Part shown: piece after piece, positions 26,010-32,232 of the stretch
How positions within the stretch are numbered: the stretch's first letter is position 1
Layout: every line of letters begins with the position of its first letter
Origin: a virus
DNA: 43,174 nucleotides
IMG/VR virus record: IMGVR_UViG_3300035701_000079
Coordinates: 1-43,174 of that record
Direction: 5' to 3' (one strand)
Translations under genes and position numbers: made by a program
Notes under the pieces: generated by a model
What the model saw: the letters and a program-made list of their open reading frames with translations, nothing else
What the model was told of the DNA's origin: nothing
Databases searched by the model: none

Positions 26010-26665
26010 TTTGTCACCTCCTTTCTTGTTTGATAAAGTTTTTCATCCACCAATGGTACCACCTTATTGTGACTCCTTGCAAACTTTTCGTGCTTGTCAA
26101 TGGCATCCCACAACTTCTTTATCTTTCTTACCCATTTAGCATTTACATCCATGAAATCACTTACCATCTGCTGCAATTGCTCCTGCCCATTTTTAAATCC
26201 ATCTCGCTCAGTCTCTGCCTCCCTTGCCAGATCACTTTGTTTTGCTAACATAGAGGCATTTAGTTTTAGGTCTGATTCCAAATGTTTGACTCTCCACTCA
26301 AGAGCGTTTATATATGCCTGTTGTGCAGCCAAAGAAGATTGCCTTGATTGTTCCTTCATAAATTGCAAATCAGCATCTTCATGCGGGGCTTGCCATTTTG
26401 ATAATTCTGATTCCAACTCCTTGATTCTGGAGTTAGCTTGCTCTAAATCTTTGTGCCAGTTCCGATCTTGTAACTTCCAAAACTCGCAATCTTCCTGTTT
26501 ACATTCAACTCGCTCTTCCAACTCCTTCACCCTTGCTTCAAGGGTTGAGATTCGGGAAAGAAGAGCAATCTTCATGTTTCTTGGTAGTAGGAAGGTTTGT
26601 GTAATAACAGAGCCATAATCTTGCTGGTTCAAATAATTTTCAATACTCTCAATCAATTTTGTCAT
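26006..26665 (-). CDS. Long coiled-coil protein
   Basis: The product has 219 residues. I use ATG 26665, nine bases after AGGAGG; a TTG at 26674 abuts the ribosome site and is ruled out. Residues 30-190 are a near-continuous heptad-like helix (TLEARVKELEERV; ANSRIKELESELSKW; EWRVKHLESDLKLN). No signal or membrane segment is visible. It heads the export trio and is coupled to the secreted protein by ATGA. It may be a scaffold or DNA-associated coil; the role is unknown. Confidence 0.6.
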   Translation of the reverse strand: MTKLIESIENYLNQQDYGSVITQTFLLPRNMKIALLSRISTLEARVKELEERVECKQEDCEFWKLQDRNWHKDLEQANSRIKELESELSKWQAPHEDADLQFMKEQSRQSSLAAQQAYINALEWRVKHLESDLKLNASMLAKQSDLAREAETERDGFKNGQEQLQQMVSDFMDVNAKWVRKIKKLWDAIDKHEKFARSHNKVVPLVDEKLYQTRKEVTK

Positions 26666-26765
26666 TTCCCTCAACCTCCTAAGTTACCTGTATCATGAAA
26701 TTCCAGTTCTCTCAAACACCAGTAATGGTAATATAGTGGTCCTATGTTTGAGTGAACATAATAAT

Positions 26766-26942
26766 CTATTTGTTTGAAGTAGGTTTAGAAAATCGTATAG
26801 GAATTAATTTTGCTACCGCCCAATTCCACTTTCCTGCATATTCAAGCATTTTCTTTTTCTTTCCAGAACATTGTATTTTCCCTTGGTTGTCAAAACAGAC
26901 TATGTCATACCCCTTCTTACCTCCATAGAAAGACTGTTTCAT
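26766..26942 (-). CDS. Small basic protein, unknown
   Basis: This gene encodes 58 residues from ATG 26942, seven bases after AGGAGG. The sequence KGYDIVCFDNQGKIQCSGKKKK followed in the protein by a Trp pair is basic and beta-prone; I see no known family. It belongs to the run of small early genes. Confidence 0.5.
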   Translation of the reverse strand: MKQSFYGGKKGYDIVCFDNQGKIQCSGKKKKMLEYAGKWNWAVAKLIPIRFSKPTSNK

Positions 26943-26943
26943 T

Positions 26944-26972
26944 ATTCATCCTCCTTTATTGCCTGATACAGT
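26944..26972. repeat. 29-bp direct repeat, copy 1
   Basis: Bases 26944-26972 match 26998-27026 with one mismatch. They include the ribosome site used by the 26942 gene; the other copy encodes the end of the 27256 gene. A short duplication probably created the ribosome site of the following gene. Confidence 0.7.
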
Positions 26973-26980
26973 ACTCATAC

Positions 26981-27256
26981 CTAAACATCCTTTCCCCATT
27001 CATCCTCCTTTATTGCCCGATACAGTCTCTCAATCTCCAAGCCCTCGTTGTTTTCTGCCATGAGGTCGGAATCGGCAGAAGTTTGAGAAGTTTTACGTCC
27101 GGCAAATCGGGTGGCAAGTCGCTCTCGCTGACTTGTCTCGCTCCGAGCAATCTGCAGGAGGGATAATAGATATTTAATTTGTCCATCTTTTACCAAACAA
27201 ATTTCGCATAAACATTTACCAAGTTGTGCCTCAATCTTCTCAATCTCTTTACTCAT
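26981..27256 (-). CDS. Small early protein, unknown
   Basis: The product has 91 residues, largely helical and charged, with CLCEIC near residues 15-20 and a Ser/Thr/Arg-rich middle. The start overlaps the preceding stop (ATGA). No known family recognised. Confidence 0.55.
   Translation of the reverse strand: MSKEIEKIEAQLGKCLCEICLVKDGQIKYLLSLLQIARSETSQRERLATRFAGRKTSQTSADSDLMAENNEGLEIERLYRAIKEDEWGKDV
26998..27026. repeat. 29-bp direct repeat, copy 2
   Basis: This copy lies 54 bases from the first and codes for the last part (YRAIKEDE) of the minus-strand protein at 26981-27256. Confidence 0.7.
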
Positions 27257-27393
27257 CCCTCAACCTCCTTCTCTGGCTCTGGTATAGGTTCCTCGTCTTT
27301 CTCTGGTTGATCTCTATACCAATCCTCATATTGCTGTTGATAAATTCTTGGGTCTCCATTTGGATTATTTAGCAAATCAGGATAAATCTTCAT
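27253..27393 (-). CDS. Small acidic protein
   Basis: This gene encodes 46 residues, starting at ATG 27393 behind GGTTGAGGG, and overlaps both neighbours. The N-terminus is Tyr/Asn-rich and the second half is a Pro/Glu-rich acidic tail (PEKDEEPIPEPEKEVEG). The function is unknown. Confidence 0.5.
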   Translation of the reverse strand: MKIYPDLLNNPNGDPRIYQQQYEDWYRDQPEKDEEPIPEPEKEVEG

Positions 27394-27583
27394 CCCTCAA
27401 CCCCCTTTCGATTTCTGATACCCTCTCTAATAAATATCTTTGTATTTTAGAAATCATCTTCGAAATATCTTTTCTGTCATAAAGAGGATTCTGAAACCGT
27501 AATTCACTCCAGTCTATGCTAATAACTATTCCATCTTTAATCCCAATCTTTATTATAAAGTCCGGTTCAACCTGCCTAATCAT
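27377..27583 (-). CDS. Small early protein, unknown
   Basis: The product has 68 residues: a beta-prone first half (PDFIIKIGIKDGIVISIDW) and a charged helix at the end. It overlaps the next small gene by 17 bases and the previous one by 8. I recognise no family. Confidence 0.5.
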   Translation of the reverse strand: MIRQVEPDFIIKIGIKDGIVISIDWSELRFQNPLYDRKDISKMISKIQRYLLERVSEIERGLRDEDLS

Positions 27584-27728
27584 CTTTCAACCTCCCTATA
27601 ATGTGAATCAGACTGGTTATTGTTTGAAAGATCATAAATAATATACCATCATTCTTCCTCTCCCAAACCTCTTCGTGATGTGAGTTGTCTTCGGTTCGTT
27701 CCCATCTGATCTTTAAGTATGTTGACAT
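27576..27728 (-). CDS. Small early protein, unknown
   Basis: This gene encodes 50 residues from ATG 27728, seven bases after AGGAGG. An aromatic, charged first half (YLKIRWERTEDNSHHEEVW) precedes a hydrophobic helix near residues 30-45. Its leader contains the GC-rich stem element at 27750-27824. Confidence 0.5.
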   Translation of the reverse strand: MSTYLKIRWERTEDNSHHEEVWERKNDGILFMIFQTITSLIHIIGRLKDD

Positions 27729-27749
27729 CTCTAAACCTCCTTTCAGGCG

Positions 27750-27824
27750 TGGGGTGGGCAGGACTTCTCATCCCACAAGTTTCATTGACTCAGGCTTCTC
27801 GCTTTGCGACCAGCCACCACCCCA
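27750..27824 (-). ncRNA. Candidate structured RNA element, copy A
   Basis: In this non-coding gap TGGGGTGG (27750-27757) and CCACCCCA (27817-27824) form a perfect 8-bp closing stem. An inner hairpin (TCGC-TTT-GCGA) and a TGGG/CCCA pair are also visible. The edges GGGTGGGCAGG and CCACCACCCC recur in the same order at 28757-28838. The minus strand is favoured because copy B keeps its stem there through a G-U pair. It sits in the leader of the 27728 gene. I cannot assign it to a known RNA class. Confidence 0.4.
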
Positions 27825-27841
27825 TAAAGTTGTTTATAGAA

Positions 27842-27931
27842 TTATGATTTTAATACCCTCCAAGAATTCTTATTCCACCAAGTAAATTCATGACCCTTAT
27901 AGTTATCCCTTTTAATTTTTATGTCCCACAT
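27842..27931 (-). CDS. Possible tiny ORF
   Basis: ATG 27931 opens a 29-residue frame rich in Trp, Lys and Asn (HEFTWWNKNSWRVLKS). It overlaps the end of the 45-residue gene upstream. There is only a weak GCGAG ribosome site, so it may not be real. Confidence 0.25.
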   Translation of the reverse strand: MWDIKIKRDNYKGHEFTWWNKNSWRVLKS

Positions 27932-28049
27932 ACTCGCTTTTATCAGTTACTTCTAAATTACGACATGGTTTACCTTCGTCAATCTGGAAACAAATATCTG
28001 TATTCACCTTGGACCAACTCTTTCGGTTGCGGCATTGGATATAGGGCAT
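27912..28049 (-). CDS. Small basic early protein
   Basis: This gene encodes 45 residues from ATG 28049, three bases after the preceding stop, with GAAGGT at a short distance. It is rich in Lys, Arg and Asn and has three cysteines. I recognise no family; tight spacing suggests cotranslation with the upstream gene. Confidence 0.4.
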   Translation of the reverse strand: MPYIQCRNRKSWSKVNTDICFQIDEGKPCRNLEVTDKSEYVGHKN

Positions 28050-28052
28050 GGG

Positions 28053-28340
28053 TTAACCTTCTGCCTTGGCGATAAGATTCTTGGCTATTGCCTGATATGT
28101 TTCCAGTAAACTCCCCAGATCACTATCTTTATATGGCCCTTGTGCCACTGCGTAGCAGAACTCTAATAACTCAGGAGCCGAAGCGATCAAGTAAGTATTG
28201 GCTTCTGCTTCTTCCATGTTTTGTACTTTGGCTATGAGTTCTCCAGCACGATTGGGCGCAGTTACATATTGATTATATTTATAAAAAGGTGTACCTGCTC
28301 CATCAAAATGTGCTTTCCAGGGTCCAGGTGTATGTTTCAT
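28053..28340 (-). CDS. Conserved phage hypothetical protein (HTPGPW family)
   Basis: The product has 95 residues and starts MKHTPGPWKAH, with ANTYLIASAPELLEFCYAVAQ in the middle. This HTPGPW...LIAxAPELLE layout is a widespread small phage early protein whose role is unknown. A clear AAAGGAG site precedes the ATG. It belongs to the minus early operon. Confidence 0.75.
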   Translation of the reverse strand: MKHTPGPWKAHFDGAGTPFYKYNQYVTAPNRAGELIAKVQNMEEAEANTYLIASAPELLEFCYAVAQGPYKDSDLGSLLETYQAIAKNLIAKAEG

Positions 28341-28418
28341 AATGTTCTCCTTTCTAATTCCCTCATCCCTTTATAGGGCTTAGTGTGACGAGCACATCCA
28401 ATTGGCTCAGGAGTTATT

Positions 28419-28691
28419 TTATGTGCGGGCAGGAGGGGTCATCGACGACCAATAAATGCTTTTCCCTACTGTTCTTGGCTGTCCCTTGGATCGCAATCCA
28501 CCGCACCATTTCATCTGCCCCTGTCCAGGTCGGTCATTCTGCCCCGGTATCTTTCCTCTTGCGATTATATGAACCAGCGGTCTTATGAATGCCCTCGATG
28601 CAGGGGCAGAATTACTGATAATGTCCATTAGTACATACCAAAGCTGTTCCACTTTGTTGGAGTGAAGCCTTACATACTTGGCAAATTCCAT
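28419..28691 (-). CDS. Doubtful ORF
   Basis: A 90-residue frame from ATG 28691 lacks a nearby ribosome site, and its second half (GQNDRPGQGQMKWCGGLRS) is of low protein-like quality. A different frame of the same strand looks more protein-like in parts. I list it only because it is the longest frame in the gap. Confidence 0.2.
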   Translation of the reverse strand: MEFAKYVRLHSNKVEQLWYVLMDIISNSAPASRAFIRPLVHIIARGKIPGQNDRPGQGQMKWCGGLRSKGQPRTVGKSIYWSSMTPPART

Positions 28692-28707
28692 ATGAACTCA
28701 GTTTACA
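28612..28707 (-). pseudogene. Zinc-ribbon-like fragment without a proper start
   Basis: This 31-residue frame contains YGICQVCKASLQ followed by ALVCTNGHYQ and a stop: a CxxC...CxxGH zinc-knuckle pattern. No start codon lies in frame. A seven-residue frame begins with ATG 28725 behind the same stretch, and a one-base frame change at about 28703 would join the two into a plausible zinc protein of about 36 residues. It is either a decayed gene, an assembly indel, or chance. Confidence 0.3.
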
Positions 28708-28756
28708 TCACCACCTTTCATAAGCGTGGGCAGGAGGCAGCGGATCTTCGTAATTA

Positions 28757-28838
28757 GGGTGGGCAGGTAGCCCAGACCTGCACTTGGCTGTTCCAATTTA
28801 ATGGTTTATCAGTATGGGTTGGTTCTCACCACCACCCC
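28757..28838 (-). ncRNA. Candidate structured RNA element, copy B
   Basis: GGGTGGGCAGG (28757-28767) and CCACCACCCC (28829-28838) are the same edges as in copy A, enclosing different sequence of similar length. GGGTGG/CCACCC forms the closing stem; the next pair is A-C on the plus strand but G-U on the minus strand, so a minus-strand RNA is favoured. An inner GCAGG/CCTGC hairpin (28763-28767 with 28777-28781) is also possible. Confidence 0.4.
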
Positions 28839-28896
28839 TTAGCCTCCCCTTCCTGAGATGTCCGCTTAGATTGGGTTATCACCCGCTTAGCCCACA

Positions 28897-31947: not shown

Positions 31948-32176
31948 CCTTCTTATCCTTCCTCTTAATCGCCTTCTTGACTTGTGCCGTACATTTAAGA
32001 TCGACCAAATATGGACATTTTTTTAAGGTGCAGACTTCATCGCTGAGTTTGAATTTCTGACGTGATTTCTCACAAATGAAGTAGGGAATAAGATTTCTCC
32101 TTTCTGGCCGGTAGGGGATGTGCCACAGACATTGCTCCCCTTTATAACGCGCCCTGCTGTCTCTGTGGTGAGGCAC
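31931..32176 (-). CDS. Small cysteine-containing early protein
   Basis: The product has 81 residues if GTG 32176 is used, the only start in the frame before a stop; its ribosome site is poor. Four spaced cysteines (EQCLW, FICEK, EVCTLKKCPYL, LKCTAQ) suggest a metal site, followed by a basic tail. No family recognised. Confidence 0.5.
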   Translation of the reverse strand: MPHHRDSRARYKGEQCLWHIPYRPERRNLIPYFICEKSRQKFKLSDEVCTLKKCPYLVDLKCTAQVKKAIKRKDKKDVKAT

Positions 32177-32232
32177 CGGCCATGTTCAAATAACTACTAC
32201 CTACCCTCTTCCGCCATCTCAGGTTATGAAGA

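Follow-up and report, generated by a model that had tools for sequence, protein, structure and literature searches.

The window analysed here is the whole of IMG/VR virus record IMGVR_UViG_3300035701_000079, a stretch of 43,174 bases. Family matches among its proteins identify a head-tail connector, a Prim-Pol (with a weak DnaB-type match), a PD-(D/E)XK exonuclease, and an Mgm101-type protein. Ranked by the connector protein, the annotated phage in first place is Pelagibacter phage Baldr (45%; 230 matching records, all below 60%), which has a gene order broadly like that of the window. Terminase relatives were found at nine loci in IMG/VR, including L108 (73%), L109 (63%), and L110 (59%). No host was identified because none of the 20 pattern-matched stretches obtained by terminase alignment against genome_contigs was a relative. 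The DNA of the region studied below had no match in annotated phages.

A repeated stem element between early genes

The original prediction, made from the sequence of the window, described two copies (A and B) of a GC-rich stem element on the early minus strand, with shared edges and differing interiors. Both edges were found where they had been placed: GGGTGGGCAGG lies at 27752-27762 and 28757-28767, and CCACCACCCC lies at 27814-27823 and 28829-28838. The additional GGGCAGG sites that had been reported at 28427 and 28728 are also present but are reassigned here, as the first is the 3' edge of a third copy (C) and the second is the 3' strand of the outer stem of a larger element, Q, which encloses copy B. 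The other strand has four more GGGCAGG sites elsewhere in the window. Copy C, the enclosing element Q, and the tRNA-like character of the base had escaped the first reading. The three copies in the window are as follows.

27748..27825, minus strand: copy A, with an 8-bp closing stem (P1), hairpin P2, a small hairpin, and hairpin P3 abutting P1
28419..28509, minus strand: copy C, with P1 GUGCGG/CCGCAC, P2 UGGAU/AUCCA, and P3 GUAGG/CCUGC; contains the GGGCAGG site at 28427
28753..28840, minus strand: copy B, with P1 GGGGUGG/CCACCCU, P2, and P3 GCAGGU/ACCUGC; lies inside element Q

Copy A is flanked by ORFs 27576-27728 and 27912-28049, neither of which has a family match, and copy B is located between the exonuclease gene and ORF 28053-28340. 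A further ORF in that interval (28419-28691) overlaps copy C. A coding explanation for 28419-28691 was dropped, as this ORF has no family match and its frame meets a stop, judged by eye, in the matching block of L118.

A descriptor based on A and B detected copy C; it consists of a 6-bp stem, UGG, and then CCUGC 35-130 nt further on. It matches the 43 kb window at three places, all on the minus strand and within 1.1 kb of each other. Because it was derived from A and B, only the match at C (28423-28507) counts as an independent success; here the UGG and CCUGC edges of A and B recur on the recoded stem GUGCGG/CCGCAC. First-order Markov simulations of the window yielded a mean of 0.19 descriptor matches, and three matches within 1.2 kb on one strand were obtained in none of 300 simulations. 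Other loci, many of which had been fetched with a similar pattern, gave 29 matches in 1.75 million strand-bases (1.4 per window length).

Copies in other uncultured phages

Four further copies were found in three other phages, which brings the total to seven (A, B, and C in the window, two in L108, and one each in L118 and L110).

L108 416-528, minus strand: copy A', seen by eye in the L108 early genes
L108 577-659, minus strand: copy L108_2, seen by eye in the L108 early genes
L118 8890-9002: the L118 copy, found by a hairpin pattern common to A and A'
L110 1986-2079, minus strand: the L110 copy, found with the descriptor

The two L108 copies are on the contig of L119. The L118 copy is located in a 127-bp stretch that is 93% identical to L108; the two phages share patches that are 76-97% identical, the longest being 427 bp at 88%. 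The L118 phage has no match to the terminase or connector of the window. Whole-copy identity is 50-67% between copies, except for that between the L118 copy and A' (91%). The original prediction had raised the concern that the repeat might be due to chance should neither further copies with compensatory changes nor a transcript exist; the idea passed the test on copies, as five more were found (one in the window and four in the three other phages), with compensatory stem changes.

Pattern searches beyond these phages returned few candidates. In IMG/VR, a GGTGGCTG-hairpin pattern matched L118 and L119, of which L119 shares its contig with L108, and a core-interior pattern matched the same two contigs only. 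A Coriobacteriaceae locus, the single GGTGGCTG-hairpin match in genome_contigs, was rejected, as the CCUGC edge was absent in the 250 bases read and it scored 13.2 bits. A scan of IMG/VR with the pattern GTGGGCAGG...CCACCACCC gave 29 stretches, which were treated as background. The L118 copy had no match in annotated phages, and no copy of the element was detected in Baldr at E <= 10.

Covariation of the closing stem

The seven copies were combined into a single alignment (A1), which has 15 invariant columns, every one of them in the edges. MAFFT misaligned copy C against the other window copies. The covariation score of P1 across the seven copies is 0.464, compared to 0.036-0.143 when the pairing partners are slid, and was reached by none of 500 shuffles. 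Similarly, 91.1% of P1 cells are paired in the seven copies, compared to 41.1-62.5% when slid. Two weaker measures gave four pairs with a double change vs 2.4 (reached by 25 of 500 shuffles) and eight further pair types vs 6.7 (reached by 145 of 500 shuffles). At individual positions, three copies have U-A and four have C-G at pair 3; G-C, U-A, and G-U occur at pair 4, together with a single A-C mismatch (in L108_2); pair 5 is G-C, G-U, or U-A; and pair 8 is formed in four copies (as C-G, A-U, or U-A) but not in the other three of seven. Copy A' and the L118 copy differ by double changes at P1 pairs 8 and 9. The pairing of C and of the L110 copy was selected for, both having been found by a descriptor that demands pairing, while A' and L108_2 (found by eye) and the L118 copy (found by hairpin pattern) were chosen without a pairing filter.

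The claim that a change in the stem keeps pairing only as minus-strand RNA holds for the outermost pair of copy B (G-U, vs A-C on the plus strand) and applies to that terminal pair only. Over all copies, P1 on the sense strand has four G-U pairs vs one A-C.

We built two covariance models. Model R1 was made from all seven copies and so matches these by construction. Run over eight whole records, it had matches in four and none in the records of L109, L106, L107, and L031. Among 100 loci that included all 29 stretches from the pattern scan, only L021 (26 bits) and L005 (18.1 bits) were matched at E <= 1. Model R2 was built from the four non-window copies only and applied, with filters off, to the whole window. 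Its three top-ranked matches, all on the minus strand, are copy A (33.5 bits, E 3.3e-5), copy C (14.7 bits, E 0.29), and copy B (13.9 bits, E 0.44), and the next match scores 11.4 bits. Taken singly, A is significant in this leave-out test, and C and B fall short.

Predicted folds and resemblance to tRNA

From the predicted folds we infer a common plan, in which P1 encloses three parts: hairpin P2, which starts at UGG; a middle part that varies; and hairpin P3, which has CCUGC for its 3' strand and abuts P1. The P1/P2/P3 arrangement is the minimum free energy (MFE) fold of A, C, A', and the L118 copy. In copy B it is predicted at -26.4 vs an MFE of -27.0, i.e. 0.6 kcal/mol above, and in the L110 copy it lies 4.3 above the MFE. 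L108_2 forms only P1 (with a mismatch) and a 4-bp P3, at 3.2 above its MFE. Copy A has an MFE of -34 (z -4.23), and none of 200 shuffles was as stable; with longer flanks, z is -2.73 and two of 200 shuffles were as stable. A' and the L118 copy are also far more stable than shuffles (z -5.07 and -4.67, respectively), while the L110 copy (z -1.14), B (z -0.88), C (z 0.07), and L108_2 (z 0.51) are not significantly better than theirs. The summed folding energy of the copies is -239.5 in sense vs -219.7 in antisense, with the antisense fold slightly better in B, C, and L108_2.

As modelled, the base of the element resembles the acceptor stem and T-stem of a tRNA. In the proposed folds (which are MFE folds in A, C, A', and L118 only), a P1 of 6-10 bp abuts a P3 of 4-6 bp, compared to the 7-bp and 5-bp helices of the tRNA plan, and this predicted acceptor-like closing stem with a 4-6 bp hairpin against its 3' strand would be a feature in common with tRNA (RF00005) and with tRNA-like RNase P substrates. 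The likeness is most complete in the L110 copy, which has an acceptor-like stem and a canonical T-arm (GCAGG-UUCGAGU-CCUGC) and matches the tRNA model at 22.1 bits (E 0.011, below the cut-off of 29), with the D and anticodon arms not aligned. The 3' part of this copy matched 22 records at E 0.1-0.4; among the best 20 of the 22, 18 matches lie over annotated tRNA genes and two over no feature. The T-loop motif of tRNAs is UUCRANY. It is found in the L110 copy and is absent from the other six of seven copies. Unlike tRNA, the copies have no D or anticodon arm and no 3' CCA, the window copies have no T-loop, stem length is variable, and scores are below the cut-off. No tRNA was detected in the window by ARAGORN or at the RF00005 gathering cut-off of 29 bits, and at E <= 10 the tRNA model had no match around the window copies or in the L118 copy. 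The length of P1 varies, the T-like loops span 4, 7, 24, or 31 nt, and CCA is lacking, so a strict RNase P substrate is not supported. A tRNA of L021, the locus that R1 matches at 26 bits, has the same edges. This tRNA (L021 410-495, minus strand; 36.3 bits) is odd in having a stretch of 29 nt where the model has 17 (the anticodon arm), and it adjoins another tRNA that ARAGORN could not type.

Further elements in the early gene gaps

Four other candidate elements were annotated on the minus strand of the window.

28358..28417, minus strand: element R, UAACUCCUGAGCCAAUUGG ... AAGGGAUGAGGG, just upstream of the ribosome-binding site of ORF 28053-28340 and following copy C
28514..28610, minus strand: element H, with stem UCUGCCCCUG/CAGGGGCAGA, between Q and C
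28725..28896, minus strand: element Q, with outer stem GUGGGC/GCCCAC, a hairpin, an AGCGGA/UCCGCU helix, and copy B in its apical part
32106-32181, minus strand: element P, with closing stem GGCCGGU/ACCGGCC, near the start of the minus early operon

Q has counterparts at L118 8523-8622, where there is no insert, and at L108 532-722 (minus strand), where L108_2 is nested at the corresponding point. TAA is found on both sides of copy B inside Q. The proposed inner helix of Q reads AGCGGA/UCCGCU, AGCGAG/CUCGCU, and AGCCAUG/CAUGGCU in the three phages and covaries across these three sequences, whose helix strands were picked by eye and typed by hand. The MFE fold of Q in L118 uses a different inner helix, and MAFFT aligned the three Q sequences poorly.

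Element H is represented in L118 (8620-8745) by blocks with 22 of 23 and 22 of 24 identical bases. Its conserved blocks are CUGCAUYGAGGGCAU and GACCUGRACAGGGGCAGA, the ends of which pair, and a similar CAUCGAGGGCAU is present at L110 1787-1801. In the H region (28526-28622) the plus strand folds better than the minus strand (z -4.14 vs -0.92). Element R is kept at L108 5400-5461, where it is preceded by element P. The P stretch is 93% identical to L108 5459-5563, with a neighbouring stretch at 81%, and a pattern for this element matched L119 only. An AGGGG/CCCCU pseudoknot looks possible by eye in P. The early gaps of these phages therefore seem, from the arrangement of Q, H, R, and P across them, to hold exchangeable modules.

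Possible roles of the element

The repeat appears to be a genuine structured RNA element, unlisted so far and located between the early genes of a few uncultured phages, in which the sequence has changed and the pairing has largely been kept. Its shared plan is a covarying closing stem of 6-10 bp, an invariant inner UGG and CCUGC, and a fast-changing interior. Each of the seven copies has the same sense as its neighbouring genes. For four of them (A, A', L118, and L110) a Shine-Dalgarno sequence lies 3-9 nt beyond the end of the copy and is followed by a start codon, the Shine-Dalgarno sequence of A' being only AGGA; copy A ends 8-9 nt before the AGGAGG and ATG of ORF 27576-27728. There is no Shine-Dalgarno sequence directly downstream of B, C, or L108_2. 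At the gathering cut-offs of Rfam 15 there were no matches in the window, L118, L119 (the contig of the L108 copies), or L110, and no such phage element appears among the titles listed for the open-access literature. Like the candidate structured RNAs reported from metagenome comparisons, as far as the excerpts of PMC2864571 and PMC8040213 describe them, it comes from intergenic comparison of partly uncultured sequences. The element is a putative unlisted cis-acting structured RNA of phage early transcripts, its newness being judged against Rfam 15.

The element may help to process or control early mRNA. The Shine-Dalgarno placement, the gene sense, and the tRNA-like plan of the base lead us to favour, tentatively and with rather less than even confidence, a reading in which A, B, and C form one structured-RNA family in the early minus-strand mRNA that would serve as an intercistronic processing or 5'-protection site. 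In broader terms, such modular intercistronic RNA elements of early mRNA are probably processing or stability sites, the mechanism of which we infer. This agrees with the earlier suggestion of a structured leader RNA or processing site in terms of gene sense and the position of four of the seven copies. P1 and P3 could stack in the manner of a tRNA acceptor stem and T-stem, and the early mRNA would be cut at the intercistronic cis element; alternatively, the message downstream would acquire from the element a structured and protected 5' end, close before its ribosome-binding site. With a tRNA-like base, the element would be a fitting target for RNase P or for a nuclease that processes tRNAs in a similar way. 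The combination of constant base and free interior is in keeping with a feature that is recognised at its base, such that the base would be the recognised part and the interior a free spacer. Polycistronic mRNAs are named in the titles of references of PMC11143913. If real, the element would represent an undescribed family of phage structured RNA, supported by covariation, without an Rfam match, and nested within another candidate element. A small phage would then be seen to divide or regulate its long early operon by means of RNA modules, and the tRNA-like base makes RNase P cleavage a direct test.

Several other explanations were weighed. A chance repeat, to which the short edges, the differing interiors, and the four GGGCAGG sites on the other strand might point, is extremely improbable: it is largely refuted by the covariation of P1 and the leave-out model, which ranks A, C, and B on top, and the simulations did not reproduce the cluster (0/300). 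REP- and MITE-like repeats have a terminal inverted repeat, a variable interior, and nested copies. The present element is alike in all three respects, and it could be a mobile stem-loop DNA module that spreads by insertion, with the RNA structure a by-product of its terminal inverted repeats. B and L108_2 occupy the same point of Q while the Q of L118 has no insert, TAA flanks B, and A' and the L118 copy are 93% identical over 127 bp, the phage of the latter having no terminase or connector match to the window. The shared insertion point also fits common descent, and we regard mobility as unlikely given that 7/7 copies are in gene sense, that P1 favours the sense strand by four G-U to one A-C, that its covarying double changes suggest upkeep of the stem, that the flanks, read by eye, have no constant target duplication (B alone has a possible TAA duplication), and that no transposase was found among the window proteins scanned. 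There is likewise only a small probability that the copies are decayed tRNA genes, i.e. phage tRNAs now drifting after loss of the D and anticodon arms. The acceptor and T-arm of the L110 copy (22.1 bits) and the edges shared with the L021 tRNA speak for such an origin, yet drift would break the acceptor stem, which instead covaries, and the T-loop motif is absent in 6/7 copies, with no tRNA score for the window and L118 copies.

Two regulatory alternatives concern the early operon itself. In the first, a put-like antitermination or anti-pausing RNA, the nascent element would bind RNA polymerase and allow read-through of the long early operon. As described in the available portion of PMC9378689, putL and putR of HK022 are about 70 nt long, lie in early operons, and each comprise two stem-loops, with putL just downstream of the promoter and putR about 270 nt downstream. 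The copies described here are alike in belonging to a phage early transcript, in being structured and of similar size (about 75-113 nt), and in occurring more than once per genome. In contrast to the two stem-loops of put near early promoters, as that portion presents them, they are closed by a long-range stem around an interior and lie deeper in the operon; element P (32106-32181), which lies nearest to where the minus operon starts, has a different sequence, and there is no Rfam match. A put-like function is accordingly doubtful. A riboregulator, that is, a ligand- or protein-responsive switch controlling translation of the downstream small genes, is very unlikely: four copies precede a ribosome-binding site and the edges are invariant, but a ligand pocket would be expected in the interior, and conservation there is poor. 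A wider scenario is speculative, and we see a low likelihood for it. Here the phage group would own a set of RNA domains (the A/B/C family, Q, H, R, and P) and exchange them among the gaps between early genes, with one domain nested in the loop of another; the A/B/C family would derive from the acceptor/T-arm half of a tRNA, which would have persisted as the base for recognition while the interior was free to vary, and host tRNA-processing enzymes would cut the early mRNA at chosen points.

Other features of the window

Intrinsic terminators and sigma-70 promoters were dropped as explanations, as their counts in the window are close to expectation (5 terminators vs 4.4 expected and 13 promoters vs 13.0 expected); the terminator at 27749 is on the plus strand. 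The contig ends (1-836 and 42339-43174) are 84% identical over 836 bp and both match one L111 locus, so that this looks like a circular join at which one gene is present in two strain variants. Window 26665-27742 contains a long start signal, GGAGGTTGAGGGATG-like and on the minus strand, that is common to six places before small early ORFs.
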